From contig NZ_AGAV01000019.1 of the NCBI RefSeq assembly GCF_000224785.1, positions 1 to 64,000 on the forward strand: a stretch of DNA of 64,000 nt. Direction: 5' to 3'. Origin of the DNA: Lentibacillus jeotgali (lineage in GTDB: Bacteria > Bacillota > Bacilli > Bacillales > Amphibacillaceae). Below the pieces are notes generated by a model. The model made no database searches, was not told the origin of the DNA, and saw nothing but the letters and a program-made list of their open reading frames with translations. Positions 9,435 to 38,421 of the stretch are shown here, piece by piece. Position 1 is the first letter of the stretch. Each line of letters starts with the position of its first letter. Made by a program: the position numbers and the translations under genes.

Positions 9435-10418
9435 TTGTTACAAAGGAAGCTTACTGATATTGAAGGCATAAAAGTGGGACATGAACAAGATTATAATGGA
9501 GCTACGGGCAGTACTGTTATTTTATGTGAAGAGGGAGCAGTAGCTGGCGTCGATGTAGAAGGGGGTTCGCCAGGAACTCGTGAAACAGCGCTTCTCTCTC
9601 CTGTAAATAGAGTTGATAAGGCACACGGAATCCTACTGTCCGGAGGAAGCGCTTTTGGGCTAGATGCTGCGGCAGGCATTATGGAATATTTGGAAGACCA
9701 TAACTCAGGATTTGATGTCGGTGTAACTAAAGTTCCAATCGTACCAGGGGCAATACTGTTCGATTTAGGTTTAGGGGATTACAAAGCAAGGCCGGATAAA
9801 AAAATGGGGCTACAAGCGTGTAAAAATGCTGCTGAAGATTATTGTAAAGAAGGTACTATTGGTGCAGGTACGGGAGCAACAGTTGGAAAAGTCTTAGGAA
9901 TGGAAAGAGCTATGAAAGGTGGTTTAGGTACCTATTGTATTCAAGTGGGGGAATTAATGGTCGGTGCTATGGTTGCTGTGAATTGCTTTGGAGATGTCAT
10001 TAACCCGCAGACCGGCGAAATCATCGCTGGTGCATTCACGAAAGACGGACACTTTGTAAACACTGAGGAATTTATGATTAAAGAATTTGAAAATCAGCAA
10101 ATTAAAAATCAGGAAAATACGACGATTGGAGTAGTTGTTTCCAATGCAAAATTCAATAAAGCCGAGGCTAATAAACTTGCCTCCATGGCTCATGATGGCT
10201 TTGCGAGAACAATGCGTCCGTCTCATACTATGGTAGATGGGGACACAATTTTTGCACTAGCAACAGGAGAAGTTGAATGTGACCTTGATTTAGTCGGACT
10301 CTTAGCTGCAAATGTAATGGGAGAGGCTGTTGTAAGAGCAATAAAGAAGGCAACCTCGTTACATGGGGTGACCAGTTATTCTGATTTAAGCAGGAACAGT
10401 TATAATAGATGTTGGTAA
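9435..10418 (+). CDS. P1-family (S58) autoprocessing peptidase, DmpA/BapA/NylC type
   Basis: A 327-residue Ntn-type hydrolase. The family self-cleaves before a catalytic Ser/Thr to give alpha and beta chains; ENTTIGVVVSNA places the likely cut between N228 and T229, as in NylC. The substrate-side motif GILLSGGSAFGLDAAAG (65-81) and GTIGAGTGATVGK are typical. Members hydrolyse N-terminal L- or beta-amino acyl peptides, including beta-alanyl dipeptides, or nylon oligomers. The start is TTG 9435, set by GGAGGGA at 9424-9430. It stands alone between two terminator-like hairpins, beside the FadR-type regulator. Confidence 0.85.
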   Translation: MLQRKLTDIEGIKVGHEQDYNGATGSTVILCEEGAVAGVDVEGGSPGTRETALLSPVNRVDKAHGILLSGGSAFGLDAAAGIMEYLEDHNSGFDVGVTKVPIVPGAILFDLGLGDYKARPDKKMGLQACKNAAEDYCKEGTIGAGTGATVGKVLGMERAMKGGLGTYCIQVGELMVGAMVAVNCFGDVINPQTGEIIAGAFTKDGHFVNTEEFMIKEFENQQIKNQENTTIGVVVSNAKFNKAEANKLASMAHDGFARTMRPSHTMVDGDTIFALATGEVECDLDLVGLLAANVMGEAVVRAIKKATSLHGVTSYSDLSRNSYNRCW

Positions 10419-10708: not shown

Positions 10709-11407
10709 CTATTCATTCACCATTTCTTCATTATTTTTGATCATGTCTTGAACGATATCACTTGAATTAAATTCAAGGTTTCCCTTTATTAAGTCCAGAT
10801 AGAATTTATGTGTGGTTAATGTACGTTTAATGTTTTTAGAGTTTTTAAAGTGTATCATTTTTGGCTTTATTATTTCATAAATTGTTTTTCCGATTTCAAT
10901 AACAAAAGGATTATTAGTTGCTTCCAGTACTGCATAATGGAATTCCAAATCAATTTCGGCAAGTTCTTCAGGACTTAATTCCGGTTTCATTCTTTCAACT
11001 TGTGATTGATAGACTTTCTCTATGTAACTAATATCTCTGTCTTCCTTGGTGATAATCATATTCATGAGCAGTACCTCGAAATGTTGCCTGAATTTAATCA
11101 ATTCTTCCATGTTATTTCTGTGCATTATCAAACTGAAGATCAAAGGATTTAAGGTGAAATGCGATAAGTTATTTGTTATAAACATCCCCTCACCTCGTTT
11201 TATTTGTATAACACCAATAGCTTCTAATATCTTTATTGCTTCTCTAACGGGTGTTCTACTGACTCCTATTTGTTCCATTAATTCTTTTTCTGTAGGTAAT
11301 TTATCACCGGGTTTTAATTTTCCATTGAGAAGGTTATCTTTAATCATATTTACAATTTCAGATGAAATAGTGCGGCTTAAATTAATATTTCCAATTGATA
11401 ATTCCAT
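10709..11407 (-). CDS. GntR-family regulator, FadR/FCD subfamily
   Basis: A 232-residue regulator. The winged helix (about residues 10-75) contains LPTEKELMEQIGVSRTPVREAIKILEAIGV, and residues 80-225 form an all-helical FCD effector domain with the metal-site-like DLEFHYAVLEATNNP. GAGGGG lies before the ATG at 11407. It is transcribed away from the pantothenate-type operon, with a 26-bp perfect palindrome between the two, so it is probably the local repressor and also autoregulated. The FCD ligand is likely an organic acid (for example pantoate or a pathway intermediate), which is inference. Confidence 0.88.
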   Translation of the reverse strand: MELSIGNINLSRTISSEIVNMIKDNLLNGKLKPGDKLPTEKELMEQIGVSRTPVREAIKILEAIGVIQIKRGEGMFITNNLSHFTLNPLIFSLIMHRNNMEELIKFRQHFEVLLMNMIITKEDRDISYIEKVYQSQVERMKPELSPEELAEIDLEFHYAVLEATNNPFVIEIGKTIYEIIKPKMIHFKNSKNIKRTLTTHKFYLDLIKGNLEFNSSDIVQDMIKNNEEMVNE

Positions 11408-11496
11408 AACACCAACCCCTCGAGTTTTTATTTAATTTTCTGTAATCTATTGTTTACAAAGCATTCAGAATTTGCTAAAGTAAATAAACATAATAC

Positions 11497-11522
11497 TATT
11501 ACATCATACGTATGATGTAATA
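11497..11522. promoter_or_regulatory. 26-bp perfect palindrome, candidate FadR-type operator
   Basis: Every base from 11497 to 11522 is self-complementary around the centre ACGT (core ATCATACGTATGAT). It lies in the divergent region, 90 bp from the GntR start and 137 bp from the YhdT start, where a FadR-type dimer would bind. Confidence 0.7.
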
Positions 11523-11604
11523 CATTCTAAATTCAATATACTATGAATTATTGAAATTTGCAAATTTTATAGGTAACTAGGTATGTTTAATTCACTAAAT
11601 TTTA

Positions 11605-11618
11605 TGTAAGCGTTAACG
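11605..11618 (+). promoter_or_regulatory. cre-like site before the panF operon
   Basis: TGTAAGCGTTAACG matches the cre consensus at all but the last position. It is 40 bp before the YhdT start, a place suited to roadblock or promoter-proximal repression by CcpA. Confidence 0.6.
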
Positions 11619-11658
11619 CGGTTCGTATGAAATAACCTATATAAGGAAGGTGAGAAAC

Positions 11659-11955
11659 ATGAAGGACAACCATTTTAATGATTATTGGCGGTTGAAGGTA
11701 GCAAACCGTGAAGCTGTAGTAGGCTGTGTTCTTGCTGCCATCAATATTCTATGGTGGTTCGGTTTTGCTTATGGTTTGGGTTCTAAGCCTCCTGAAGAAT
11801 ACACATATGTATTAGGTTTCCCGGCTTGGTTCTTCTGGAGTTGTATAGTCGGATACCTTGTTATGGTGGCCTTAGTATTCATTGTTGTTAAATTTGTATT
11901 GAAAGAGGTTCCATTAGACGATGAAGTCGATGATGAAGAGGAGGAGTCGGCATGA
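11659..11955 (+). CDS. yhdT: YhdT-family (DUF997) small membrane protein
   Basis: A 98-residue protein with two hydrophobic helices (about 22-40 and 57-82), an aromatic-rich WWFGFAYGLG turn and an acidic tail. YhdT is the small neighbour of panF in Escherichia coli, and here too it sits directly before a PanF-like gene with an ATGA overlap, which supports a subunit or assembly role for the pantothenate symporter. ATG 11659 is chosen over GTG 11650 because AAGGAAGG (11643-11650) is then well spaced. Confidence 0.8.
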   Translation: MKDNHFNDYWRLKVANREAVVGCVLAAINILWWFGFAYGLGSKPPEEYTYVLGFPAWFFWSCIVGYLVMVALVFIVVKFVLKEVPLDDEVDDEEEESA

Positions 11956-13421
11956 ATTGGGGCGTTGTTACACCATTATTAATATTTCTCTTAATCATTT
12001 TTATGATAGGGATCTGGTCCAACCGGAAGATGAATTCATCAAAATCCTTCCTGGGTGACTATTTTTTAGGAAGCCGTGAATTCGGCGGGATGGTTCTTGC
12101 TATGACAATGGTTGCTACATACGGCAGTGCATCAAGTTTTCTGGGTGGTCCTGGAGCTGCGTACTCAATTGGTTTCGGCTGGGTACTCTTGGCAATGACC
12201 CAGGTGGCTACTGGCTATTTTGTACTGCTTGTTCTCGGCAAGAAGTTTGCAATTGTGACACGACGCTATAATGCAGTTACCCTTATTGATTTTTTGAAGG
12301 AAAGATATAAAAGTACGCCTGTCGTTTTATTGTCGGCACTAAGTATCATTATCTTTTTGTTCTCCGCAATGGCTGCACAGTGGGTTGGCGGTGCATACTT
12401 AATTCAATCGTTAACTGGCTTGTCATATACAGCAGCCCTGTTTATCTTTACGCTGTCCGTTTTAATCTATGTCACCATTGGCGGTTTCAGGGCTGTTGCG
12501 ATTACTGATACAGTACAGGGGATTGTGATGTTTTTGGGAACATTCGTGCTGTTGATCGCCGTTATTATGGCGGGTGGCGGTTTGTCCAATATCTTCTCTG
12601 AATTGGTTGCCGAAAATCCTAATTTTGTCACACCATATGGCCAGGACGGGCAGCTGTCGGCCGCTTACATTTCGTCTTACTGGATACTTGTTGGCGTCGG
12701 CGTCATCGCTTTGCCACAGGTTACAGTCCGGGCAATGTCATACAGAAATGCTAAATCAATGCACCGTGCCATTATGATAGGCACAGTGGTAGTTGGTTTC
12801 ATTATGCTCAATATGCACTTGATTGGTGTCTTTGCCAGACCCGTACTGCCGGGGATCGAGGTTGCAGATCAGGTCATACCATTAATCGCTTTGGATGTTC
12901 TACCTTCATGGCTGGCAGGGATTGTACTGGCAGCACCATTGGCCGCGATGATGTCAACGGTTGACTCGCTATTACTGCTTGTTAGTTCATCCATCGTTAA
13001 AGATGTTTATATTAATTATTTTAAACCTGAAGCGTCTTTTAAACACGTCAAAAAGGTCAGTATGGGCGTCACAGCTGTTATCGGAGTTATTGCCTTTCTG
13101 TTATCCATCGACCCGCCTGAACTGCTCATATTCTTGAATCTATTTGCGTTTGGCGGATTGGAAGCAGCGTTCATATGGCCGATTGTACTGGGACTATATT
13201 GGAAGCGTGCAAATAAATCTGGCGCCATCGCATCGATGATAACTGGTATTGTTTCTTATGTCGGCATCCATTTCTATAATGAAGCCTATGGTGATTTGTT
13301 TGGTGTTCACACAGTAACAGTGCCTGTTTTCCTGTCACTGCTAGCCTTTGTTGTATTTAGCCTTATTTTGAGAGAAACGGCATATGAATTCCCTGAATCT
13401 AAATTGAATAAAGAAGCATAA
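11952..13421 (+). CDS. panF: Sodium/pantothenate symporter
   Basis: A 489-residue SSS-family transporter that closely follows E. coli PanF as I remember it: FLGSREFGG-VLAMTM-ATY-SASSF-GGPGAAY near residues 35-75, GKKFAI-TRRYNAVTL, and FGGLEA-F-WP-VLGLYW-RAN-GA near the C-terminus. It would import pantothenate with Na+. It overlaps yhdT by 4 bases and leads a run of catabolic enzymes, which suggests uptake for degradation and not for coenzyme A synthesis only. Confidence 0.87.
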   Translation: MNWGVVTPLLIFLLIIFMIGIWSNRKMNSSKSFLGDYFLGSREFGGMVLAMTMVATYGSASSFLGGPGAAYSIGFGWVLLAMTQVATGYFVLLVLGKKFAIVTRRYNAVTLIDFLKERYKSTPVVLLSALSIIIFLFSAMAAQWVGGAYLIQSLTGLSYTAALFIFTLSVLIYVTIGGFRAVAITDTVQGIVMFLGTFVLLIAVIMAGGGLSNIFSELVAENPNFVTPYGQDGQLSAAYISSYWILVGVGVIALPQVTVRAMSYRNAKSMHRAIMIGTVVVGFIMLNMHLIGVFARPVLPGIEVADQVIPLIALDVLPSWLAGIVLAAPLAAMMSTVDSLLLLVSSSIVKDVYINYFKPEASFKHVKKVSMGVTAVIGVIAFLLSIDPPELLIFLNLFAFGGLEAAFIWPIVLGLYWKRANKSGAIASMITGIVSYVGIHFYNEAYGDLFGVHTVTVPVFLSLLAFVVFSLILRETAYEFPESKLNKEA

Positions 13422-13434
13422 GGAGTGGTAATGC

Positions 13435-14670
13435 ATGAATTTGACTAAAACAGACAGACTTAAAAGGGATTACGAGAGGGCTGTCTCACTGACGCAGCAG
13501 CTAGTTCAAATACCGAGTGTCTATCGCCCGGAAGAATCGGATGGCAATGAAGAAAAAGTAGCCAAGTTTGTAGCCGATTATTTGCGTGACTTAGGCATTG
13601 ATGTATATGTTGAAGAAGTTGAACCAGGAAGACCGAACGTTATTGGTGTTATTGATTCCGGCAAACCAGGGAAAACGCTTTTGTTTGAGGGTCATACTGA
13701 CGTTGTGACAGAAGGCGATCGGGAAAGCTGGCAATATGATCCGTTTGGAGCGGAGATAGTGGACGGTCTGATGTACGGTAGAGGCACAAATGATACGAAG
13801 GGTAATTTGGCCTGTATGATTACAGCTGTCCGTTCAATTCTGGAAGATAAAGAAGCATTCAGCGGTAAAATTATCTTGTGTATTCCGGTCGATGAAGAAA
13901 GCATGATGATCGGCATCAAACATTTCATCGAGCAGGGCTGGGCGGATGATGTTGACGGTGCAATCATTTGTGAACCGGAAGAAAATCAGATTTGTGTCGC
14001 ACAGCGCGGGGCACTGAGAATTCAAATCACTGTTAATGGAAAGATGGCTCATGGCGCCATTTCCTGGAGCGGCATCAATCCGAATTGGCGTATGGCTAAA
14101 ATAATCACTGCGCTTGAAGCATTGGAGAAGGAAGAACAAGAGACACATGGCGAACATCCTTATTTAAAATGGCCAAGCATAACGCCAACGATTGTAAAAG
14201 CACCTGTAAAAGGTGATGCACAGATTAATGTCATTCCGGAAAAGGCCATGACAACATTAGATATCAGAACGATCCCTTCTCAGGACCATGATAGATTAAT
14301 CCAAAAAATTGAAGCTATTTTCAAGAAGTTGGAAAAAGAAGATGAAGATTTTAATGTTACGTATAAGATTATTGAAAACCGCCCTGCCACAGAAACGGAT
14401 CAGGCAAACCCGGTTGTGGAGGCTGTTCATGATGCAGTGAAGACCACGTTGGATAAAGAACCGGAATATAATGGGGTTCCCGGTGCGACAGACGGCACCT
14501 TCCTGCATATTCATGGCGTGTCGATTGTCACAATAGGGGCGGGTGACAGAGAAGTACCGCATCACATTAACGAATATGTCGACATTAATGAACTGGGCGA
14601 GACGACGGAAATCTATCGTCAAGCCGCTTTAAACTTTTTAAATGAGGATGGTAAGAACCGTGGTAAGTAA
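13435..14670 (+). CDS. M20-family metalloamidohydrolase (candidate pantothenase)
   Basis: A 411-residue M20 (ArgE/DapE/CPG2) hydrolase. Visible metal and catalytic residues are H87 and D89 in GHTDV, D120 in GTNDTKG, the E154-E155 pair in PVDEES, E180, and a late HH in VPHHINEYV. The family cleaves amide bonds next to a carboxylate. In this operon the natural substrate would be pantothenate, giving pantoate and beta-alanine; that is inference from the neighbours. AGGAGTGG lies before ATG 13435, and the end overlaps the next gene. Confidence 0.8.
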   Translation: MNLTKTDRLKRDYERAVSLTQQLVQIPSVYRPEESDGNEEKVAKFVADYLRDLGIDVYVEEVEPGRPNVIGVIDSGKPGKTLLFEGHTDVVTEGDRESWQYDPFGAEIVDGLMYGRGTNDTKGNLACMITAVRSILEDKEAFSGKIILCIPVDEESMMIGIKHFIEQGWADDVDGAIICEPEENQICVAQRGALRIQITVNGKMAHGAISWSGINPNWRMAKIITALEALEKEEQETHGEHPYLKWPSITPTIVKAPVKGDAQINVIPEKAMTTLDIRTIPSQDHDRLIQKIEAIFKKLEKEDEDFNVTYKIIENRPATETDQANPVVEAVHDAVKTTLDKEPEYNGVPGATDGTFLHIHGVSIVTIGAGDREVPHHINEYVDINELGETTEIYRQAALNFLNEDGKNRGK

Positions 14671-15739
14671 AATTGCGATCATTCCAGGGGATGGAATCGG
14701 AAAAGAAGTTATGAAAGAAGCTATTAAAGTATTAAACGTGCTGGAATCTGACTACTATTTAAATGTTGCGTATGATGTATTCGATTGGGGCAGTGATTAC
14801 TATATCGAGAATAATCGCATGCTGCCGGACAATGGTCTTGAAAAACTGAAAAACTATGATGCTATTTTACTCGGGGCAGTTGGTGATAATCGGGTCCCGG
14901 ACGATATTCCGGTATGGGAATTAATCATGCCTATTCGAAAAACATTTCAGCAATATGTTAATTTCCGTCCAGTTAAGCAGTTAAAAGGCGTAGAAAGTCC
15001 GCTGAGCAGTTCACAAAGCGAGAAGATTGATTTTGTCATTATGCGTGAGAACTCGGAGGGCGAGTATTCTGATTCGGGCGGTTTGATGTTTCAGGGGCAG
15101 GACAAGGAGATGGCGATTCAAAATTCAATCTTCACGAAGCAGGGGATAAAAAATATTGCTGAGTTCGCCTTTGACTATGCCCGTAGACATGATTACAGAA
15201 AGGTGACCAGCGCGACAAAATCCAATGCGATTACTCATACGATGAAGTTTTGGGATAAAGAAGTCGGGGAAATAGCTGAATCTCATAGCGATATAGAATA
15301 TGAAAAAGTTTATGTTGATGCGTTAGCGGCAAAGTTTGTGCAACAGCCCGAGGAATTCCAAGTGGTATTGGCTTCAAATTTATTCGGAGATATTTTGTCA
15401 GACCTAGGTTCCTCAGTGGCAGGGGGACTCGGAATTTCCCCTTCTGCAAACATCAATCCGAGTGGCGAATTTCCGTCGATGTTTGAACCTGTTCATGGCT
15501 CAGCCCCTGATATAGCTGGAAAAGGATTAGCGAATCCAATTGCCCAAGTGTGGTCGCTTGCACTGCTGCTCGAACATATTGGAAGGAAAGATTTACATGA
15601 TCATATTTTAAAGGCCATTGAAAAACTATTATCCGACAAATCCAAAGTAACAAAGGATATTGGTGGATCAGCCAGCACCGAAGAAACTGGAGATGAATTA
15701 ATGAAAATTTTACGTGATAACAAGGTGGGAATAACATGA
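14642..15739 (+). CDS. Tartrate/D-malate-type decarboxylating dehydrogenase (candidate 3,3-dimethylmalate dehydrogenase)
   Basis: A 365-residue member of the isocitrate/isopropylmalate dehydrogenase family. N-terminal IPGDGIGKEV, DYYIENNRMLPDNGLEKLKNYDAILLGAVGD and PIRKTFQQYVNFRPV are most like TtuC/DmlA tartrate and D-malate dehydrogenases. MRENSEGEYSDSGG is the substrate loop and SNLFGDILSDLG the metal site. Such enzymes oxidise and decarboxylate 2-hydroxy acids; 3,3-dimethylmalate (a D-malate analogue) to 2-oxoisovalerate would complete pantoate breakdown. The start may be ATG 14642 or GTG 14660; the family usually begins just before the IAIIPGDG strand. Confidence 0.8.
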   Translation: MRMVRTVVSKIAIIPGDGIGKEVMKEAIKVLNVLESDYYLNVAYDVFDWGSDYYIENNRMLPDNGLEKLKNYDAILLGAVGDNRVPDDIPVWELIMPIRKTFQQYVNFRPVKQLKGVESPLSSSQSEKIDFVIMRENSEGEYSDSGGLMFQGQDKEMAIQNSIFTKQGIKNIAEFAFDYARRHDYRKVTSATKSNAITHTMKFWDKEVGEIAESHSDIEYEKVYVDALAAKFVQQPEEFQVVLASNLFGDILSDLGSSVAGGLGISPSANINPSGEFPSMFEPVHGSAPDIAGKGLANPIAQVWSLALLLEHIGRKDLHDHILKAIEKLLSDKSKVTKDIGGSASTEETGDELMKILRDNKVGIT

Positions 15740-16485
15740 CTTTTAAAGATAAAACCATTGTCGTTGCCGGGGCTGGCGGTGGAATGGGAAAAGCAGTCGT
15801 TGAAACACTCCTCAAGGAAAACGCAAATGTCGTGGGCTGTGACTTGAATATCGCATCGCTTGAGGAACTCGAGGGCGTTGACCGGTTCCTTGGAATAGAA
15901 GGTAATCTGCTTGAGGAAGAAAAAGTGAAATCAGTTTTCAGCAATGCAAAAGAAACATTTGGAGGAATTCACGGGCTTGTCAATGCAGCTGGCATCGCTC
16001 AAAGTTCAACACCGATTGAGCAAGTGGACTTGAAAGAATGGTACAAACTTATTGACATTAATTTAACGATGACATTTTTAACCTGTCGAGAAGCTGCCAG
16101 TTATATGAAAGAACAAGGTGGCGGTGCGATCGTCAACATCGGCTCTGTTTCAGTGACCAGGCCTAGGCCCGGCCTGCAGTCATATGTTGCTTCAAAAGGA
16201 GCAGTTGAATCGTTTACTAAGGCGTTGGCATTAGAGCTGTCAGACAACCAGATTAACGTGAATCTTCTTCACCCCGGTCCAAGTGATACAAACATGCTTG
16301 GTCAATTTGCTCAGAAGGGTGCAGACATTGAGAAAATGAAAGACACGGTATTCAAGGACAGCGTGCCGATGGGAAGACTTTTGGAGCCTCAGGATATCGC
16401 AAATTCAGTTAAATTTTTATTATCTGATGAGGCCAGCATGGTAACCGGAAGTGTATTTCACGTTGATGGCGGCAGAAACATTTGA
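15736..16485 (+). CDS. SDR-family dehydrogenase (candidate D-pantoate 4-dehydrogenase)
   Basis: A 249-residue classical short-chain dehydrogenase with the cofactor motif GAGGGMGKA, NAAG, a catalytic Ser in NIGSVS and the YVASK Tyr-Lys pair, and a C-terminal VTGSVFHVDGG. It overlaps the preceding gene by ATGA. In the operon it would oxidise an alcohol to the aldehyde used by the following ALDH; the hydroxymethyl group of pantoate is the obvious candidate given the PanF transporter. Confidence 0.78.
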   Translation: MTFKDKTIVVAGAGGGMGKAVVETLLKENANVVGCDLNIASLEELEGVDRFLGIEGNLLEEEKVKSVFSNAKETFGGIHGLVNAAGIAQSSTPIEQVDLKEWYKLIDINLTMTFLTCREAASYMKEQGGGAIVNIGSVSVTRPRPGLQSYVASKGAVESFTKALALELSDNQINVNLLHPGPSDTNMLGQFAQKGADIEKMKDTVFKDSVPMGRLLEPQDIANSVKFLLSDEASMVTGSVFHVDGGRNI

Positions 16486-16516
16486 CAGCAGTTAAGTAAC
16501 TTGAGGTGGTGGTTTG

Positions 16517-17959
16517 ATGGAAGCATTAAACATGTATATCAACGGCAAATGGGAAGACAGTCACGACAAAGAAACCATAAATGTCAATAATCCGTCCACG
16601 GGAGAGGTCATGACAACGATTCCTCGTGGCAAGAATGATGATGTTGATAAAGCGGTAAGAGCTGCTAAAGATTCATTCGTCAGTGAAGAATGGCGACGCG
16701 TCAAACCGTTTGAGCGAGGGAGAATCCTGTGCGAGGTAGTGGCGCAGCTTAAAGAAAATCGGGATGAGCTGGCAAGGCTGGAAACAATGGACGTCGGCAA
16801 ACCCTTAACACAGGGCTATGCTGATATCGATGCTGCCATAAGATATTTTGAATTTTATGGAGGTGCAGCAGATAAAGTAATGGGCGACACAATCCCGATT
16901 GAGGACGGTCTCATCGATTATGTGATCCGTGAACCAATTGGTGTGACAGCCCATATTGTACCATGGAATTATCCCATTCAAATATTATCGCGTAGCGTGG
17001 CTGCAGCGATAGCGATGGGCAATACGGTCGTCGTAAAAAGTGCAGAAGATACGCCCCTGACAGCCGCAAAAATAGCGGAATACTTTGATCAGACAGATTT
17101 GCCTGAAGGTGTCTTTAATCATGTGACGGGTTACGGGTATGAAGCAGGCGCTGCTTTATCGTCTCATCCGCTGATTAATCATTTAACATTTACAGGCTCG
17201 GTTGGAACAGGGACAGCTGTTGCGAATGCTGCCACGTCGAATGTCGTGCCTGTGACACTTGAATTAGGCGGCAAATCGCCTAACATCGTTTTCTCGGATT
17301 GTGATGTTGATAAGGCGGTCGAAGGTGTTGTAAAAGCGATTATTCAGAATGCCGGGCAAACATGTTCTGCCGGATCAAGATTATTGATTGAAGAATCGTT
17401 TAAGCAAACATTCTTGGATAAGTTGGTTAATAAATTTAAAACATTATCGGTCGGTCCAGCTATAGATGATCACAACCTTGGCCCGATATTAAACCAAAAA
17501 CAATTTGACCGGATTCTGGAATTTATTTCGTTGGCTGAGCAGGAAGGAACTGTACTGACTGGCGGCAAACGCGTGAAGTATGAACAATACGAGAATGCGT
17601 GCTATCTGGAGCCAACCATCATCGATAATCTCTCACTCAACAGCAAGGCTGCACAAGAAGAAATCTTTGGCCCGGTCCTGTCGGTGTTTACTTTTAAGAA
17701 TGAGCAGGAAGCGATTGACATTGCCAACAGCACTGACTATGGTCTTGTGACAGGCATTTGGACAAAGGACATTAATAAAGCGCATTTATTAATGAGCCGA
17801 ATCGATTCAGGCCAGGTTTTCATTAATAATTACGGTGCCGGCGGTGGGATACAAATGCCATTCGGCGGTTACAAGAAAAGCGGCTTTGGACGTGAAAAAG
17901 GCTGGATAGCTTTATACAATTATACGCAAGTGAAGAATGTGGCGATTAAGTTTGATTAG
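16517..17959 (+). CDS. NAD(P)-dependent aldehyde dehydrogenase (candidate 4-dehydropantoate dehydrogenase)
   Basis: A 480-residue ALDH of the betaine-aldehyde type: PWNYP near 155, E249 in LELGGKSP and the nucleophile C283 in GQTCSAGSR. ATG 16517 is preceded by GAGGTGGTGG; the codon before it is an in-frame TTG. Last gene of the operon, followed by a terminator. Its expected role is oxidation of the aldehyde made by the SDR, giving dimethylmalate if the pathway assignment is right. General betaine or succinate semialdehyde activity cannot be excluded. Confidence 0.82.
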   Translation: MEALNMYINGKWEDSHDKETINVNNPSTGEVMTTIPRGKNDDVDKAVRAAKDSFVSEEWRRVKPFERGRILCEVVAQLKENRDELARLETMDVGKPLTQGYADIDAAIRYFEFYGGAADKVMGDTIPIEDGLIDYVIREPIGVTAHIVPWNYPIQILSRSVAAAIAMGNTVVVKSAEDTPLTAAKIAEYFDQTDLPEGVFNHVTGYGYEAGAALSSHPLINHLTFTGSVGTGTAVANAATSNVVPVTLELGGKSPNIVFSDCDVDKAVEGVVKAIIQNAGQTCSAGSRLLIEESFKQTFLDKLVNKFKTLSVGPAIDDHNLGPILNQKQFDRILEFISLAEQEGTVLTGGKRVKYEQYENACYLEPTIIDNLSLNSKAAQEEIFGPVLSVFTFKNEQEAIDIANSTDYGLVTGIWTKDINKAHLLMSRIDSGQVFINNYGAGGGIQMPFGGYKKSGFGREKGWIALYNYTQVKNVAIKFD

Positions 17960-17969
17960 AATAAGTCGG

Positions 17970-18008
17970 TCCTGGAAGTCATAAATTGTGATTTCCGGGA
18001 TATTTTTT
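17970..18008 (+). terminator. Terminator of the panF operon
   Basis: A 13-bp stem (17970-17982 with 17988-18000, three G-U pairs) is followed by TATTTTTT, ten bases after the ALDH stop. Confidence 0.75.
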
Positions 18009-18284
18009 AGCAGTTAAGAAAAAGTATAAATATTTTCTTACTGCATAAGGGCAACTAAGGCTTTCGCCATAAAAGCTTGGCGATAAGCCAAGTTTTCTAA
18101 TGAATTGAAGCAACTTTAGATTTAACAACATGTCTAAAATAATAACAATATTTTTTACAGTATGATAAGTGTAATTTAGTTTTATACCACGTATTATTAA
18201 TGATATATAATATTCCCAATAATTATAAAAGTTTAACAAAGGAATAACAATCCATTTTGGAGTGATAAGATGATTTCGGAGAAA

Positions 18285-18298
18285 TGAAAGCGTATTCA
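18285..18298 (+). promoter_or_regulatory. cre-like site before hydA
   Basis: TGAAAGCGTATTCA matches cre at all but one fixed position. It lies 132 bp before hydA. The rest of the 18009-18429 gap is AT-rich with a TATAAT-like hexamer at 18206-18211 lacking a good -35 partner; no ORF there is convincing. Confidence 0.55.
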
Positions 18299-18429
18299 AT
18301 GAGGCGAATCTAATAGTGAAATGGGGTGGGTATAAATATGGAAATTAATTTTTAGCTAGCAAGAACGATGAAAATTAAATAATTGTCGTACTTTAGTGTG
18401 CCAAATTCACAATTCAGAGGAGGAAACGT

Positions 18430-19857
18430 ATGCGTACATTAATTAGAAACGGGATGATTGTAACAGCTGTTGACGAATTTGTTGGGGATGTACTTATAGA
18501 TGGCGAGAAAATAATTGCTGTCGGTGAAAATTTAGATTCGATGGCTGACCAAATAGTAGATGCGAAAGGGAAATATGTTCTTCCTGGCGGGGTAGATCAG
18601 CATGTCCATTATTCCTTTGAGTTTAAAGGCGAGCGCGTAAGAGGATTTGAAACCTCAAATGCTGCTGTTGCTGGGGGAACCACAACGGTTGTTGAATTTG
18701 TGAATCAAGAACAGGGCAAGGGGATGGCAGATACCATTTTTGATATGGATAAGAACGAAGTTGCGCATCAGGCCATGGCAGATTATTCGTACCATGCTGT
18801 CGTATGTGACCCAGTGGATACAACATTTGAGGAAATTGCGGATTTGCCTAATAGGGGAATTTCGACTGTAAAATTGTTCATGGCTTATAAGGGAATGCCG
18901 TTTCACAGTGATGATGAGGCCCTTTACAAAGCATTAAAGGCAGCAAAGGAAGCCGGCGTCACGGTCATGGTTCATTGTGAGAATGCCGATGTTATCGATC
19001 TTCTTCAAAAGAAACTGATCTCCGAAGGTAAGACTGATCCATATTACCATGCAGTATCAAGACCAGCAAGAGTGGAACTGGAGGCGACTCAGCGTGTAAT
19101 TAATCTTGCAGCTATGGCTGAAGCCCCAGTTTACATTGTTCATGTCACAGCCGAAAATGTGATGAAAGCCATTCGGAACGCCAAAAATGAAGGGCTCCCG
19201 GTTTATGGCGAAACATGTGTCCAATATCTGATGCTTGATGAAGATAATTTAGCTGAGCCTAATTTTGAAGGGGCTAAATATGTGATGTCGCCTGCACTCC
19301 GTACTAAAACGGACCAGGAGGCCTTGTGGCAAGCAGTTGATAATGGCTGGCTGAACGCTATCAGTACCGACCATTGCGGATTTGACTGGGCCTCACAAAA
19401 ACATATGGGCGTTGATGACTTTACCAATATCCCAAATGGTGCACCTGGTGTAGAAAATCGCCTAGGCATTCTTTGGACATATGGAGTAAACACTGGAAAG
19501 CTCTCCAGACAGCAGTTTGTTGACCTATTTGCAACGACACCTGCAAAGAATATGGGATTAGATCATTGCAAGGGACATATTGGTGTTGGTATGGATGCGG
19601 ATATTGTTTTATATGACCCTAATGAATCGTCGATTATATCGAATGAGAACAGTCTGCACGGTGTCGACTATAGTACGTTTGAGGGGTATAAACAGGAAGG
19701 GAAAGTGGATAAAGTATTCCTTCGCGGCAAACTCATGGTTAATGATGGAGAATTCATTGGTGAAAAAGGTGATGGAAGGTTTATCCACGGAGAACCGTTT
19801 GCCCTGTGCTTTGATGATACGAAAGAAACCACAGAGTTGGATAAATCGCGGAGTTAA
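18430..19857 (+). CDS. hydA: Dihydropyrimidinase / D-hydantoinase
   Basis: A 475-residue cyclic amidohydrolase. H58 and H60 in DQHVHYSFEF, the carboxylated lysine K148 in STVKLFMAYKG, VHCEN, VYIVHVTAEN and STDHCGFDW form the binuclear zinc site seen in the family. It opens dihydrouracil (and 5-monosubstituted hydantoins) to N-carbamoyl-beta-alanine in the cytosol. GGAGG precedes the ATG. It heads the pyrimidine operon with preT, preA, a nucleobase permease and an amidohydrolase, so dihydropyrimidinase is the natural assignment. Confidence 0.9.
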   Translation: MRTLIRNGMIVTAVDEFVGDVLIDGEKIIAVGENLDSMADQIVDAKGKYVLPGGVDQHVHYSFEFKGERVRGFETSNAAVAGGTTTVVEFVNQEQGKGMADTIFDMDKNEVAHQAMADYSYHAVVCDPVDTTFEEIADLPNRGISTVKLFMAYKGMPFHSDDEALYKALKAAKEAGVTVMVHCENADVIDLLQKKLISEGKTDPYYHAVSRPARVELEATQRVINLAAMAEAPVYIVHVTAENVMKAIRNAKNEGLPVYGETCVQYLMLDEDNLAEPNFEGAKYVMSPALRTKTDQEALWQAVDNGWLNAISTDHCGFDWASQKHMGVDDFTNIPNGAPGVENRLGILWTYGVNTGKLSRQQFVDLFATTPAKNMGLDHCKGHIGVGMDADIVLYDPNESSIISNENSLHGVDYSTFEGYKQEGKVDKVFLRGKLMVNDGEFIGEKGDGRFIHGEPFALCFDDTKETTELDKSRS

Positions 19858-19955
19858 TAACCTGGATAATGTTTTTTCCTATACGCTATTAATTATTCGA
19901 TACGAAGGAAATGATAATTTAAATTTCTATCATAAAGAAAAGGAGGGGCTTATTA

Positions 19956-21329
19956 TTGGGAAATCTACTACAAAATTTACTGTCGGATGAAGATCTGGCC
20001 CAAAATTTTGCGGAGTCGAAGCCAAGTTATAATGCGCAAGAAGCACTTGATGAGGCAAACCGCTGCCTATATTGTTACGATGCACCTTGTATAAAGGCCT
20101 GTCCAACTGGGATTGATATCCCTAGTTTTATTAAAAAGATTGCGTCCGGAAATTTAAAAGGCTCGGCAAAAACCATTATGGAAGAGAATCCCATCGGCGC
20201 AAGCTGTGCGCGTGTTTGTCCAACAGAGGAATTATGTGAAGGGGCATGTGTCCTTAATGATTCTACTAAGCCGATTATGATTGGTGACTTACAACGCTTT
20301 GCAACAGATTGGTCAATTAAGAATGAACAAGTCATGTTTAAAGTTGGAAAGAAGAACGGAAAGCGAATTGCGATTGTTGGCAGTGGTCCAGCAGGTTTAT
20401 CGGCGGCTCGCGAGCTAGGACGACTGGGTTATGAGGTGACGGTTTTTGAATCTAAGGGTGAAGCCGGTGGATTAGACACCCATGGTATTGTTCCATTTCG
20501 GCTTCCAAAGGACATTTCGTTATGGGAGGTGGAACAGGTTGAGAGCTTAGGTGTTGAGATTCGTACAAATGCCGAAGTTGGTAAAGATATTTTTGCAGCG
20601 GACCTTGTGAGTGATTATGATTCCGTCATACTTACTGCAGGAATGTCAAAGGTGCCGATGTTAGGTATTGATGGGGAAGATTTAGAAGGCGTTTACGACG
20701 CGATTGATTTGGTTGAAGAAACAAAGAATGAAAACTATTCGACTGAATTTATTGGGAAGCGAGCTGCTGTCATTGGGGCAGGAAATACAGCGATCGATGG
20801 TGCGACGACATCGGTAAGGCTTGGTGCCGATAATGTTAAAATTCTCTATCGGCGGACAGAAGCGGAAATGTCAGCGTACGATTTTGAATACGAATTTGCC
20901 AAACAGGACGGGGTTGAGTTCAGGTGGTTAATTGCACCTAAGCGTTTGATTGGTGACCGTAATGACCATGTAAAACAGATAGAATGTGTTCGCATGGAAT
21001 TAAAAGAAGCAGGATCTGATGGACGCATGCGACCGGTAGAAATAGAAGGATCCGAATTTTTAATGGATGTGGATATTGTCATCAAGGCGATTGGTCAAAC
21101 GCGACATCATCAATTAATCGATGAGTTTGGCTTGGAACATCATAATGGTGTTGTAAAGGTAGACAATGAAACATACTTGACTTCCCAACCGAAAGTCTAT
21201 GCTGCAGGCGATGTGGTCTTTGAAAAAGGTGTTGGCGAAGCAATGGCGGTATCTGCTGCACAGCAGGGAAAAGAGACAGCCTATGCCATACATCAGCAAT
21301 TTAAAGCTTCGGAATTAGGTAATGTGTAA
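19956..21329 (+). CDS. preT: NAD-dependent dihydropyrimidine dehydrogenase, PreT subunit
   Basis: A 457-residue glutamate-synthase-small-subunit-like flavoprotein. The N-terminal domain carries eight cysteines (C37, C40, C45, C49, C84, C88, C94, C98) for two 4Fe-4S clusters, then an FAD Rossmann GSGPAGLSAA near 142 and an NAD(P) site GAGNTAIDGA. With PreA it reduces uracil and thymine using NAD(P)H. The start is TTG 19956, spaced 7 bases from AGGAGGGG. PreA lies 30 bases downstream. Confidence 0.9.
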   Translation: MGNLLQNLLSDEDLAQNFAESKPSYNAQEALDEANRCLYCYDAPCIKACPTGIDIPSFIKKIASGNLKGSAKTIMEENPIGASCARVCPTEELCEGACVLNDSTKPIMIGDLQRFATDWSIKNEQVMFKVGKKNGKRIAIVGSGPAGLSAARELGRLGYEVTVFESKGEAGGLDTHGIVPFRLPKDISLWEVEQVESLGVEIRTNAEVGKDIFAADLVSDYDSVILTAGMSKVPMLGIDGEDLEGVYDAIDLVEETKNENYSTEFIGKRAAVIGAGNTAIDGATTSVRLGADNVKILYRRTEAEMSAYDFEYEFAKQDGVEFRWLIAPKRLIGDRNDHVKQIECVRMELKEAGSDGRMRPVEIEGSEFLMDVDIVIKAIGQTRHHQLIDEFGLEHHNGVVKVDNETYLTSQPKVYAAGDVVFEKGVGEAMAVSAAQQGKETAYAIHQQFKASELGNV

Positions 21330-21359
21330 AAAGGGACTACGAATGATTGGAGGATGAAT

Positions 21360-22628: not shown

Positions 22629-22701
22629 TGGCCGGGGAATTTAATAGGGAAGAAAACAGAAAAGGTGGAGGATTTTGTTGAGTTAAGGTCATTAATCGAG
22701 G

Positions 22702-22740
22702 ATGAAGCTGTTTGATGGATTGAGAATCAAACAGCTTCAT
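22702..22740 (+). promoter_or_regulatory. Large hairpin between preA and the permease gene
   Basis: A perfect 15-bp stem (ATGAAGCTGTTTGAT at 22702-22716 with its complement at 22726-22740) and a 9-base loop, with no T-run after it. It may stabilise the 3' end of the preTA message or reduce expression of the downstream permease. Confidence 0.6.
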
Positions 22741-22770
22741 AATCCTTAATAAACTAAAAGGGGACGAACG

Positions 22771-24243: not shown

Positions 24244-24262
24244 CGGAAGGAGGAATATATCA

Positions 24263-24484
24263 TTGTCAAACTATGACGATTTTTTATCGGAAAAACTTCA
24301 AATTGATGAATTGGTGCAAAATGGATATACCATGACAGGTTCAAGAGGGACACTTGATGGAGATGTGGTTGAATTTCAGAATAAAACAACGTCTGATAAA
24401 AAAACAATACTCTTAACCAACCCGGATAGCCGCAAGTATTTTACAACATTGTACATCAAGCAGCAAAAACAAATGGTAGAGTAA
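24263..24484 (+). CDS. Small conserved-looking protein of unknown function
   Basis: A 73-residue soluble, hydrophilic protein starting at TTG 24263, nine bases after GGAAGGAGG. The excellent ribosome site and its tight fit between the permease and the amidohydrolase show that it is a real gene. It has no Cys, no signal and no motif that I recognise; the predicted pattern is a short helix followed by beta strands. It may be a small accessory or regulator of pyrimidine degradation, but no function can be assigned. Confidence 0.65.
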   Translation: MSNYDDFLSEKLQIDELVQNGYTMTGSRGTLDGDVVEFQNKTTSDKKTILLTNPDSRKYFTTLYIKQQKQMVE

Positions 24485-24518
24485 CCATTAGAGAAAGATT
24501 GGATAGGAGGCAATAATA

Positions 24519-34389: not shown

Positions 34390-35751
34390 ATGAAAACCTC
34401 AAAGGAAACATCACAGGCACTGGTGGAAAAGGACCAGCGAAATATCTGGCATCATATGTCCAAATATGACTCTAAGAGAGAACCAATGATTACAACAAAG
34501 GCAAAAGGTTCCTGGATTACAGACCATAATGGGAACAAGTATCTTGATGGTATGTCTGGGTTATGGTGTGTGAATGTTGGTTATGGGCGTGAAGAACTTG
34601 CACAAGCAGCATATGACCAATTGAAAGAGATGTCTTATACATCAATGTCACAAAGTCATTTACCGGCCATAAAACTCGCTGAAAAATTGAATGAAATGCT
34701 GAATGATGAGTATATGATTTTTTACTCCAATAGTGGTTCGGATGCTAATGAAGTGGCTTTTAAGGTAGCCAGACAATATCACCAGCAAAATGGCGAGTCA
34801 TTACGATATAAATTTATATCACGTTATCGGGCTTATCATGGCGGTTCCCTAGGTGCATTAGCTGCTACGGGTCAATCAATTCGTAAATATAAATACGAAC
34901 CTCTCACTTCCGGTTTTTTACATGTTGCTCCTCCAGATAATTATCGGAGACCTGAAGGCCAATCGATTGAAGAATATAATTTGCAAAGAGCTCATGAGAT
35001 TGAGGAAAAAATTGTATGGGAACAGAAAGAGACCATTGCTGCTGTGATTATGGAACCAGTCATCACTGGAGGGGGTGTATTGATACCGCATCCAGTATAT
35101 GTAGAGAAAGTCCAGGAAATTTGTAATCGTCATGGTGTATTATTAATTATCGATGAAGTGATTTGCGGATTTGGCAGAACAGGAAGAACGTTTGGGCACA
35201 TGCACTACGATATAAAGCCAGATATAATTACGATGGCAAAGGGGTTAACGAGTGCTTATTTGCCCTTATCTGTTACGGCTGTTCGTAAGGATATATACGA
35301 ATCCTTCAATAATACCGAAGAAAATAGTCACTTTCGCCATGTAAATACATTTGGCGGTAACCCAGCGGCATGTGCTGTTGCTTTAAAAAATATTGAAATA
35401 ATGGAACGGGAGAATTTAACCAATAGGGCTGCTGTTTTAGGTGAAAAACTAAGAGATGGACTAAAGGAACTGGAAAGTCATCCATATGTTGGGGATATCC
35501 GTAATCAAGGGTTTGTCATGGGAATAGAAATGGTAGAGGATAAAACAACGAAGGAACCGGCAACCGAACAACGTGTAGGAAAAATTATAGCAGATTGTAA
35601 AGCAAATGGTTTGATTATTGGAAAAAACGGCGATACCGTAGCTGGATATAATAATATACTGGCACTTTGTCCGCCTCTTTCCAGTACAGATGAAGACTTA
35701 GATTTCATTGTATCCATTATCAAAAAGGTATTTAAGGAGAATGGTTCATAA
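34390..35751 (+). CDS. Class III omega-aminotransferase (beta-alanine or taurine:pyruvate)
   Basis: A 453-residue PLP enzyme of the omega-amino acid aminotransferase group. The PLP lysine is K284 in [33 protein letters not shown] and [11 protein letters not shown] are the cofactor phosphate region, and EPVITGGGV and [12 protein letters not shown] the ring-stacking and Asp sites. The sequence looks like taurine:pyruvate aminotransferase (Tpa), which also accepts beta-alanine. Alanine dehydrogenase follows at 44 bases, which would recycle alanine to pyruvate, and an MmsA-type dehydrogenase follows that. The MmsA favours beta-alanine to malonate semialdehyde; the Xsc tail at the window start favours taurine. 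Confidence 0.83.
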
Positions 35752-35795
35752 ACCTTATTTCTATTGGAATATTTCTGGATTATGGAGGGCTTGGA

Positions 35796-36932
35796 ATGAA
35801 GATAGGAATACCACGAGAAATAAAAAATAATGAGAATCGGGTGGCGGTTTCACCCTCAGGAGTCGATGCTTTAGTCAAAGCTGGACATGAAGTAGTTATT
35901 GAAAGCCAGGCAGGGGTTGGATCAGGCTTTTCAGATGAGGAATATAAACAAATGGGTGCCATCCTTGAACAAGGTCCTGAGGAAGTCTGGTCTCAGGGGA
36001 TGGTCATAAAAGTTAAAGAACCACTTCCACAGGAATATCCTTATTTTTATGAAGGTCTTATTTTACTCACATATCTACATTTAGCTGCAGAACCAGATCT
36101 GGCTAAGAAATTAACAGATTCAAAGGTTATTAGTATTGCATATGAAACAATTCAAGAAAAAGATGGATCGCTACCGTTACTTGCACCAATGAGTCAAGTG
36201 GCTGGTCGAATAGCAGCTCAAATTGGCGCCCAATTATTGGAGAAACCCAAGGGTGGCAAAGGGGTTCTGTTAAGTGGTATTCCAGGAGTGATGCCAGGTA
36301 GGGTAACGATTATTGGAGGAGGTGTTGTAGGAGAAAATGCTGCTCGAATTGCAGTTGGCTTAGGTGCTAATGTGACTGTTCTTGATCTCGACCCTAATAG
36401 ATTGCGAGAATTAGAAAATTTGTTTGGGGATCAAGTAAACACACTTATGTCAAATCCTCTTAATATAGCGGAATCTGTGGCACAATCTGACCTTGTTATT
36501 GGTGCAGTATTAATTCCTGGTACAAAAGCACCAAAACTTGTACGGGAAGAAACCGTTAAGAAAATGCAAGAGAATTCGGTTATTGTTGACGTGGCTATTG
36601 ATCAAGGGGGGATATTTGAAACTAGTGATAAAGTAACGACTCATGACGATTCTACTTTTACAAAACATGGAGTCGTTCATTATGCTGTAGCCAATATGCC
36701 AGGTGCGGTACCAAGAACAGCATCTTCAGGTTTAACAAACGTAACACTGCCATATGCATTAGAAATTGCTAATAAAGGATATGTTAAATCAAGTTTAGAA
36801 AATGAGTCAATCAAAAAGGGAATCAATACAATGCAAGGATTTATAACCTATAAGGCAGTTGCAGAAGCACATAAGATCCCATATAAGGATCCAAGTTTAT
36901 TATTAAATGATATGGAATTGACAACTCATTAA
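35796..36932 (+). CDS. ald: Alanine dehydrogenase
   Basis: A 378-residue enzyme with the family catalytic residues in canonical places: R15, K74 (IKVKEP) and H95 (TYLHLA), and the NAD-binding [24 protein letters not shown]. It deaminates L-alanine to pyruvate and ammonia with NAD+. GGAGGG precedes ATG 35796. Directly after a pyruvate-dependent aminotransferase it regenerates the amino acceptor and releases the nitrogen. Confidence 0.92.
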
Positions 36933-36954
36933 TATAGTTAAGGAGGTTTCAAAA

Positions 36955-38421
36955 ATGACACAACCACAAACAAAATCAGAGCAATTAAAAAACTATATAG
37001 GCGGCAAATGGATTGAAGCAAAAAGCGATAAGACGGAATCGGTCATTAATCCGGCGACAGGCGAGGTTATTGCTGAAGTTCCGATTTCATCCAATGAAGA
37101 TGTGGACCATGCTGTAGAGGTGGCACATGAGGCATTTCAGGACTGGAAAGAACTCGCTGTACCGAAGCGTGCACGCATTTTATTCAAATACCAACAGCTG
37201 TTGGTTGACCACTGGGATGAATTGGCTGAACTTATTACGATTGAAAACGGTAAAAACTTAAAGGAAGCCAAAGGGGAAGTACAGCGCGGGATTGAAAATG
37301 TTGAATTCGCTGCCGGTGCGCCGAATTTAATGATGGGCGATCAACTATCTTCCATCGCATCGGGACTTGAATCTGGTGTATATCGTTATCCTATCGGTGT
37401 TGTCGGTGGTATTACCCCGTTCAATTTTCCAATGATGGTACCTTGTTGGATGTTTCCAATGGCAATCGCGACAGGTAATACGTTTATTATGAAGCCATCT
37501 GAGCGTACTCCGTTGCTAGCAAATCGTTTGGCAGAACTTTTGGAAGAGGCAGGCCTTCCTGAAGGTGTCTTTAACATTGTACATGGCGCCCATGATGTTG
37601 TGAATGGCCTTCTGGACCACGATAAAGTTGCCGCGATTTCATTTGTTGGATCGCAGCCCGTAGCTGAGCATGTCTATAAACGCGGGACAGACAATCTGAA
37701 ACGAGTTCAGGCACTGTCCGGTGCCAAAAACCATACAATTGTTTTGAACGACGCCAATATGGATAATGCTTCTACTCAAATTTTGAATGCGGCTTTCGGC
37801 TCGGCGGGTGAACGCTGCATGGCGGCATCAGTAGTGGCAGTGGAAGAATCTGTAGCGGATGAATTTATTGATCAGCTCATCAAAAAAGCAAATGAGATTA
37901 ATATTGGAAATGGACTTGATGAAGACGTCTTTTTGGGACCGGTCATACGTGAACAGCATAAAGAACGTACCCTGGGTTATATTGAAACTGGTGAAAACGA
38001 GGGTGCTAAGTTAATCCGTGATGGCCGTGAAGATGGAAACGCACAAGAGAAAGGCTATTTCGTAGGGCCGACCATTTTTGATAACGTAACGACAGAAATG
38101 AAAATTTGGCAGGAAGAAATCTTTGCACCGGTGCTGTCGATTGTTCGTGTCAAGGATCTTGACGAAGCTATCGATGTTACCAACCAATCACCGTTTGCGA
38201 ATGGATCTTGCTTATTTACACGTGATGGCGGTAGTGTAAGACAATTTCGGGAAAACATCGACGCGGGCATGCTGGGGATTAATATTGGTGTACCAGCGCC
38301 AATGGCATTTTTCCCTTTCTCGGGATGGAAGGATTCCTTCTATGGTGATTTGCATGCAAACGGAAAGGACAGTGTTGAATTTTATACACGTAAAAAAGTT
38401 ATGACAACAAGATGGGTATAA
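36955..38421 (+). CDS. mmsA: CoA-acylating (methyl)malonate-semialdehyde dehydrogenase
   Basis: A 488-residue ALDH of the MmsA/IolA subgroup: [11 protein letters not shown] at the start, [31 protein letters not shown] instead of the usual LELGGK loop, and nucleophile C288 in SAGERCMA. The subgroup converts methylmalonate or malonate semialdehyde plus CoA to propionyl- or acetyl-CoA and CO2. Following an omega-aminotransferase and Ald it fits beta-alanine degradation to acetyl-CoA. AAGGAGG precedes the ATG, and a terminator follows. Myo-inositol genes are absent here, so iolA is less apt. Confidence 0.9.

Follow-up and report, generated by a model that had tools for sequence, protein, structure and literature searches.

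Bacterial degradation of pantothenate (vitamin B5) was studied biochemically in the 1960s. In Pseudomonas, the vitamin is cleaved by pantothenase (EC 3.5.1.22), and the pathway intermediates are pantoate, 4-dehydropantoate, 3,3-dimethylmalate and 2-oxoisovalerate; to our knowledge, the three steps that follow pantothenase are as gene-less as pantothenase itself. Here we describe a six-gene operon from Lentibacillus jeotgali, located within a 64,000-nucleotide stretch of DNA (contig NZ_AGAV01000019.1, positions 1 to 64,000; referred to throughout as the window), for which the same intermediates can be proposed. Judged from its sequence, the operon very probably serves the uptake of pantothenate and its degradation to 2-oxoisovalerate and beta-alanine. 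It supplies candidate genes for all four steps, in culturable species, and if this assignment is true, the long-known pantothenase activity gains a gene.

In the accessible text of a study that deals with pantothenate cleavage in E. coli and other isolates, the pantothenase protein was still unknown in 2023 (PMC10393543). An initial annotation of this DNA had held that few or no genes were assigned to these activities, and the open-access papers surveyed, judged by title and the opening of the abstract, include none in which a gene is assigned to pantothenase or to the pantoate-oxidizing steps, subscription papers being mostly outside this scope and a prior assignment therefore possible. Excerpts of other sources include a flux model of Lactobacillus casei that contains EC 3.5.1.22, with PanE and PanB in the synthesis direction and no gene named (PMC4231531), a text that speaks of pantothenate degradation to coenzyme A (CoA; PMC9320016), a report of 4-dehydropantoate as a serum metabolite (PMC10569423), and a mere mention of bacterial degradation (PMC13415447).

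The operon and its proposed pathway

Six open reading frames, all on the forward strand, fill positions 11650-17959 and encode YhdT, PanF, an M20 metallohydrolase, an Iso_dh-type dehydrogenase, a short-chain dehydrogenase/reductase (SDR) and an aldehyde dehydrogenase (ALDH), which is the content and order that the initial annotation had given (Table 1). Its further claim, that the genes match the classical route step for step, holds for gene content but not for gene order, which does not follow the steps. Successive intergenic gaps are -4, +13, -29, -4 and +28 bp; because of these tight gaps, a palindrome upstream and a hairpin downstream, region 11497-18008 looks like one transcription unit. 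The six-gene order is also present in the nearest named relatives, Lentibacillus kapialis and L. persicus (L009 and L010), at 81-93% protein identity, and Geobacillus thermodenitrificans DSM 465 (L050) carries the complete set of genes. The identity of PanF, which had been judged by eye, was confirmed with the curated equivalog model TIGR02119 (694 bits against a cut-off of 328), and we infer that this protein imports pantothenate. What is established here comprises the family-level gene identities, the operon structure, the conservation of a putative operator and the association counts given below.

Table 1. Operon genes, followed by other features of the window (positions are those of the window).
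Feature	Position	Strand	Basis or remark
DUF997/YhdT small membrane protein	11650..11955	+	PF06196, 105 bits; GTG start
PanF sodium/pantothenate symporter	11952..13421	+	TIGR02119 equivalog
M20 metallohydrolase, proposed pantothenate hydrolase (pantothenase)	13435..14670	+	PF01546/PF07687, metal site, neighborhood counts
Iso_dh-superfamily decarboxylating dehydrogenase, proposed 3,3-dimethylmalate dehydrogenase	14642..15739	+	TIGR02089 (score in text); nearest PDB entry 3flk
SDR, proposed pantoate 4-dehydrogenase	15736..16485	+	PF13561/PF00106
Aldehyde dehydrogenase, proposed 4-dehydropantoate dehydrogenase	16514..17959	+	PF00171, 542 bits
Intrinsic-terminator-like hairpin	17969..18001	+	15-pair stem, then ATTTTTT
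Palindromic putative operator ACATCATACGTATGATGT	11501..11518	.	Perfect palindrome between the regulator and the operon
Promoter-like TTTACA-17-TAAAGT (extended TG), immediately 5' of the operator	11453..11481	+	Consensus scan, weak evidence
GntR/FCD-type regulator, divergent from the operon	10709..11407	-	PF00392 and PF07729
S58 (DmpA/ThnT-like) amidohydrolase	9435..10418	+	PF03576; not within the operon, to which it may or may not belong
Probable beta-alanine branch (class III aminotransferase, alanine dehydrogenase and CoA-acylating dehydrogenase of MMSDH type)	34390..38421	+	Separate unit ~16 kb downstream

A pathway is proposed in which PanF, together with YhdT, would bring in pantothenate and the M20 protein, acting as a di-metal hydrolase, would cleave the amide to yield D-pantoate and beta-alanine. 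The SDR is predicted to act on the 4-hydroxyl of pantoate to give 4-dehydropantoate, which the ALDH would convert into 3,3-dimethylmalate; decarboxylation by the Iso_dh enzyme would then lead to 2-oxoisovalerate, an intermediate of the valine pathway. The aminotransferase and the acylating aldehyde dehydrogenase encoded ~16 kb downstream could take over the beta-alanine, and the GntR protein would repress the unit via the palindrome at 11501-11518 and respond to pantothenate or pantoate. In this scheme every substrate, the inducer and the repressing mode of regulation are deduced from sequence.

The M20 protein scores over the cut-offs of both the catalytic (PF01546) and the dimerization (PF07687) domain. 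H87, D120, E154, E155 and E180 (window numbering) are invariant in a 19-row alignment and H376 is nearly so, with one row ending early; these residues align to DapE sites and are presumably the metal ligands and catalytic glutamate. The closest folds to the predicted model (pLDDT 91.3) are DapE and ArgE, followed by carnosinases. The window enzyme shares with the DapE/ArgE deacylases the M20 fold (7uoi, TM-scores 0.80/0.85), the metal ligands and the dimerization domain, but it is 29% identical to the best structure and belongs to a separate family. Among the 25 NCBIfam models shown, it stays below the DapE/ArgE equivalog cut-offs (TIGR01892, 183 versus 297.7; NF009557, 189.4 versus 284) and passes just one broad subfamily model, TIGR01910. 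The family is sharply bounded, with members at 407 bits or more and paralogues at 308 bits or less: 24 genomes each contain a member that scores at least 568 bits, with the next M20 match at most 308 bits, and eight lower-scoring members, at 407-433 bits, come from the UBA3576 class. M20 enzymes that act on beta-alanine amides have precedents in carnosinases and beta-ureidopropionase, and a pantothenate hydrolase is the most economical reading of the window protein.

Gene neighborhoods of the M20 family

Genes within 8.5 kb of M20 family members were labeled by BLAST against reference proteins, using identity thresholds that were set after viewing the data. Removal of 22 loci that were >97% identical to another reduced the 131 loci fetched to 109, with the window uncounted. 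Also dropped before counting were L055 (30% identity; its genome is without a match at 1e-60), L056 (27%), L120, which carries a second PanF and no M20, and the short copies L067-L099 and L150-L184, which were replaced by wider stretches except for L161 and L163. Controls were 30 of the 32 listed lower-scoring M20 paralogue matches, of which L241 lies ~20 kb from a family member and three are on stretches of ~11 kb or less.

PanF, the S component of an energy-coupling factor (ECF) transporter (EcfS), PanB, PanE or CoaX was found near 93 of the 109 M20 loci and near none of the 30 controls, which supports the initial reading of the locus as one for pantothenate degradation, with substrates predicted from gene identity. 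By gene, the counts among the 109 loci are 46 for the dehydrogenase, 51 for the SDR, 53 for the ALDH, 26 for PanE, 18 for PanB, 54 for S58, 11 for Opp-type transporters, 6 for formate-tetrahydrofolate ligase (FTHFS) and 2 for CoaX. PanF, EcfS, PanE, PanB and CoaX each score 0/30 in the controls, where L235 (Opp) and L238 (ALDH) are the loci with something nearby. In 95/109 loci, M20 has one or more of eight listed partner genes on its own strand at a distance of ≤300 bp. CoaX, a type III pantothenate kinase, follows M20 in L047 (144-2295) and L196 (10033-10809) and passes its model cut-off in both, so that a putatively degrading and a CoA-forming enzyme are encoded side by side.

PanF and PanT-like importers act on pantothenate itself. 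PanF is found near M20 in 33 loci and an ECF S component in 37, both together in none, and many Bacilli have an ECF transporter in place of PanF. YhdT accompanies PanF in all 33 PanF-bearing loci, which suggests that YhdT/DUF997 is a regular PanF partner; it also adjoins the additional PanF that the window genome carries (L120). Comparison of four of the 37 S components with solved structures gave 4rfs and 6zg3 as the top two matches in each case (L038, 4rfs_S 7.7e-13 and 6zg3_C 2.9e-4; L117, 2.5e-8 and 2.7e-5; L104, 2e-7 and 0.025; L211, 3.9e-6 and 5.8e-8). According to the accessible text of two reports, these structures are ECF-PanT pantothenate transporters (PMC11521937, PMC7755397). The PanF and ECF kinds differ, yet both occur near this M20, which argues for pantothenate as its substrate; the known systems serve uptake, whereas here they are tied to degradation genes. 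Opp-type transporters are a less specific pointer than either.

At least two of the dehydrogenase, SDR and ALDH genes occur in 52/109 M20 loci, and all three in 40, versus 0/30 controls. PanB or PanE is present in 28 loci and both are present in 16, and in no locus does the oxidative trio (at least two genes) occur together with PanB or PanE (0/109). Both downstream sets would lead from pantoate to 2-oxoisovalerate. Two unrelated sets, linked only through pantoate, thus replace each other beside M20, which we regard as the strongest argument for pantothenate as the likely M20 substrate.

The arrangement of the second set varies: FTHFS-PanB-PanE-AOR is followed by YhdT-PanF-M20-aminotransferase in L045, and the orders IclR-PanB-PanE-M20, PanE-PanB-M20-PanF-YhdT and aminotransferase-PanB-M20-S58-ECF are seen in L052, L207 and L206, respectively. 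Many spirochaete loci read S58-PanE-M20, with PanB and FTHFS nearby in some (L195, L199, L203, L205), and all three M20 members found in the Eubacteriales class adjoin PanB. PanB exceeds the TIGR00222 cut-off of 207.55 in L045, L052, L190, L193 and L207 (303.6-346.6 bits), and PanE exceeds the TIGR00745 cut-off of 141.35 in the same five loci and in L100, L101 and L104 (255.7-310.2 bits), TIGR00745 being a broad subfamily model; the PanB and PanE assignments of other loci rest on BLAST labels, bar genome-wide PanB matches. One genome (G173) has three PanB genes, of which the PanC-adjacent one (C8:703191) is distinct from the M20-adjacent one (C8:1043735). In G159 and G003 the sole PanB found adjoins M20 and PanC was not found, and G004 has two PanB genes and likewise no PanC found (no completeness figures accompany these four genomes, or G001 and G007 discussed below).

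The predicted second route would use these CoA-precursor enzymes in reverse. PanE would convert pantoate into ketopantoate, and retro-aldol cleavage of ketopantoate by PanB would yield 2-oxoisovalerate and methylene-tetrahydrofolate, from which the one-carbon unit could be recovered through FTHFS. We know of no prior description of a catabolic use of PanE and PanB. The PanE equilibrium favors pantoate, and the reversed route would therefore have to be drawn forward by the following reaction, which is its main weakness. On balance, we think it likely that an M20 pantothenate hydrolase family anchors two degradation pathways, an oxidative one in the Bacilli studied and a reversed PanE/PanB route, with S58 enzymes feeding in pantetheine; the reversed route is placed in members of the classes of the Eubacteriales, Spirochaetales and UBA3576 metagenome-assembled genomes (MAGs). 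By this reading, a PanB, PanE, PanF, tartrate dehydrogenase or DapE annotation can be a sign of catabolism of the vitamin and not of its synthesis, which is relevant to predictions of vitamin auxotrophy, to metabolic models and to knowing which microbes destroy vitamin B5.

S58 genes are found near M20 in 31 of the 37 loci with EcfS and in none of the 33 with PanF. The window, which is not part of these counts, pairs an S58 gene with a nearby PanF-type operon. Its S58 protein shares ~38-62% identity with the S58 enzymes found near M20 in other loci, and its structure-database matches are nylon-oligomer hydrolases and ThnT, with 9cxr matching better than ThnT. In the accessible portions of two reports, ThnT is a pantetheine hydrolase (PMC13062082) that, during the biosynthesis of thienamycin, degrades a pantetheinyl group to cysteamine (PMC6097109). 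The S58 enzymes near M20 are homologous to ThnT, but the latter works in a biosynthetic pathway; we infer that those near M20 convert pantetheine to pantothenate, and the window enzyme is possibly a pantetheine hydrolase too. One may speculate that the nylonase activity of S58-type enzymes is a side activity of pantetheine hydrolases.

Competing readings of the locus

Several points weigh against pantothenate degradation as proposed here. No panB or panC match was found in a search of the window genome, and the organism would therefore destroy a vitamin that it must import; from this apparent need for external pantothenate, tight GntR repression would be expected. A second YhdT-PanF pair lies away from M20 in this genome and may serve CoA synthesis. 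Among the 25 NCBIfam models shown, the SDR passes only a broad subfamily and the ALDH passes none, the scores of both being generic. The loci were gathered through M20, so the counts are conditional on M20, and they ignore relatedness, as do the Fisher P values computed from them; genes were labeled by BLAST at thresholds chosen by eye. No pantothenate-specific gene lies within 8.5 kb in 16/109 loci, and neither downstream set does in 29/109, some of which are at contig ends. As for the reversed route, the sole PanB of G001 lies in the M20 cluster and could be biosynthetic because this genome has PanC elsewhere, and G007 has PanE beside M20 with no PanB match found in the genome search. Finally, the pantothenase of P. 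fluorescens reportedly forms an acyl-enzyme, unlike the M20 protein of the window, which is a metallohydrolase. The initial annotation had cautioned about this mismatch, and the caution stands: the Pseudomonas pantothenase is probably another enzyme, because the M20 family occurs in 0/274 genomes of Gammaproteobacteria (the class of Rahnella rivi), a search that was without a positive control and in which pseudomonads are possibly unsampled.

The operon might be only partly directed at pantothenate, with M20 hydrolyzing the vitamin and the dehydrogenase/SDR/ALDH trio handling another acid. These three are promiscuous families with generic scores, and among the 33 PanF loci five (L018, L022, L023, L026, L028) have fewer than two trio genes and no PanB or PanE within 8.5 kb, with two of the three present in L106. 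However, the trio is found with M20 whether the transporter is of the PanF, ECF or Opp kind, in varied orders and in some cases with a different ALDH type, and the mutual exclusion of the trio (at least two genes) and PanB/PanE is what would be expected if both sets serve pantoate, which makes a separate acid unlikely. We consider it very unlikely that the cluster degrades a conjugate or analogue such as pantetheine, panthenol or an N-acyl-beta-alanine, to which pantothenate would be incidental. The ThnT-related S58 genes near half of the loci (54/109) and the 11 Opp-type transporters would suit this reading, but the restriction of S58 to loci other than the PanF type, and its frequency at ECF-type loci, looks like an upstream add-on, and both kinds of importer are known for pantothenate itself.

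The least probable alternative is salvage, in which cleaved pantothenate would supply beta-alanine or pantoate for CoA synthesis and not for catabolism. The accessible text of a labeling study in E. coli and various isolates describes pantothenate as cleaved and rebuilt (PMC10393543), and CoaX adjoins M20 in two of the 109 loci. The window genome, however, is without a panB or panC match and so has no evident way to rebuild pantothenate, and oxidizing and decarboxylating enzymes are ill-suited to salvage. Degradation of pantothenate through pantoate remains the preferred reading of the operon.

Tartrate or D-malate degradation was also considered for the Iso_dh gene and is disfavored by the PanF and M20 neighbors, by a sub-cut-off score and by the dehydrogenase tree. 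The protein narrowly misses the TIGR02089 tartrate dehydrogenase equivalog cut-off, being 1.6 bits short (468.8 versus 470.4), and the nearest structure is that of a tartrate dehydrogenase/decarboxylase. It shares the Iso_dh superfamily with the tartrate/D-malate dehydrogenases and keeps their Tyr, Lys and Asp positions, which we take to be catalytic or active-site residues and which an alignment of 12 copies, including the non-cluster L028, shows to be conserved; the M20-linked copies differ, however, in carrying W[ED][LFM][IL][ML]PIR (40/45) versus WGSLLKFR in 3flk. PIR alone was rejected as a specific motif, since it is present in other homologues too. The characteristic combination, found in those 40 copies, is PIR plus an acidic residue after Trp; in L028 the acidic residue is present but PIR is missing.

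In the tree (57 rows), the window protein groups with other operon copies, and the Bacilli cluster copies fall into two well-supported clades, one mostly PanF (24/25 rows) and the other mostly ECF (13/17), with the PanF-type L051 inside the ECF clade. A separate group holds 9 of the 11 sampled plasmid homologues and the L028 copy, and the UBA3576-class copies L209, L210 and L215 fall far off on long branches. The tree therefore does not show a single origin, and it is probable that the genes of the dehydrogenase-containing set were brought together on more than one occasion.

Plasmid homologues of the dehydrogenase were tried as a lead to a Pseudomonas-type pantothenase. The search matched 470 records, ten of which were inspected by eye (three without annotation), and the lead was rejected, with no clear pantothenate cluster in the ten opened. 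On Paenarthrobacter plasmid pADNL1 (L059:4107-9059), genes for an MFS transporter, a penicillin acylase family protein and a homologous dehydrogenase lie in a row. Penicillin acylases form acyl-enzymes, and by analogy this row might be a non-M20 counterpart, although it is a lead only.

Distribution, regulation and flanking genes

When 84,980 species, each represented by one genome, were scanned with a pattern-based search, 48 M20 loci were recovered, 46 of them at 44-90% identity. Whole-genome searches with the 19-row M20 alignment found the family in 34/299 genomes and 16/119 genera of the window's class (window genome included). In the classes of the respective MAGs, with each MAG included, the family is present in 3/341 genomes for Eubacteriales, 24/248 for Spirochaetales and 14/154 for UBA3576; for Thermoanaerobacteraceae it is present in 1/37, which is that MAG itself. 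M20 also matched 17 plasmid records at 37-42% identity.

The divergent GntR/FCD regulator is probably a local repressor of the operon. Homologues 64-85% identical to it adjoin the same genes in 7/48 scan loci (Lentibacillus, Halobacillus, Thalassobacillus), and the half-site ACATCATAC is common to 8/8 GntR-linked intergenic regions compared (window included); in the Halobacillus loci with this half-site the set begins with another of its genes. The full palindrome has a single match in the window even at up to 3 mismatches (0.03 expected), and genome-wide the nearest other sites differ by 3 mismatches, a copy on a duplicated contig being set aside. The consensus scan found 25 promoter-like sites in 11350-18500 versus 18.6 expected, and terminator-like sites in the region number 10 versus 5.2 expected, so that such a scan alone is weak evidence. 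For YhdT, an alternative ATG start at 11659 is better placed behind AAGGAAGG than the GTG.

The genes at 34390-38421 are the probable beta-alanine branch, with model scores that are all over cut-off (NF005812, 779 bits; TIGR00518, 538 bits; TIGR01722, 610 bits). Directly downstream of the operon, at 18430-25754, lies a reductive pyrimidine degradation cluster (dihydropyrimidinase, PreT-like, PreA, a transporter-like open reading frame and a carbamoylase-type M20), the end product of which would also be beta-alanine, which gives the region the look of an island for compounds that yield beta-alanine. Homologues of these pyrimidine-degradation genes are also present in L100 (10801-17923, G173), where PanE-M20-PanB are joined with genes of the sodium-pump decarboxylase, methylmalonyl-CoA decarboxylase alpha and acylating aldehyde dehydrogenase types. 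The two decarboxylase-type genes and the acylating dehydrogenase could take beta-alanine onward, and the cluster possibly conserves energy from it. Four SSS-family transporter genes, M20 and the operator of the window recur in contig C14, each displaced by the same 216,676 bases, which points to an apparent duplication of this stretch, either in the assembly or in the genome.

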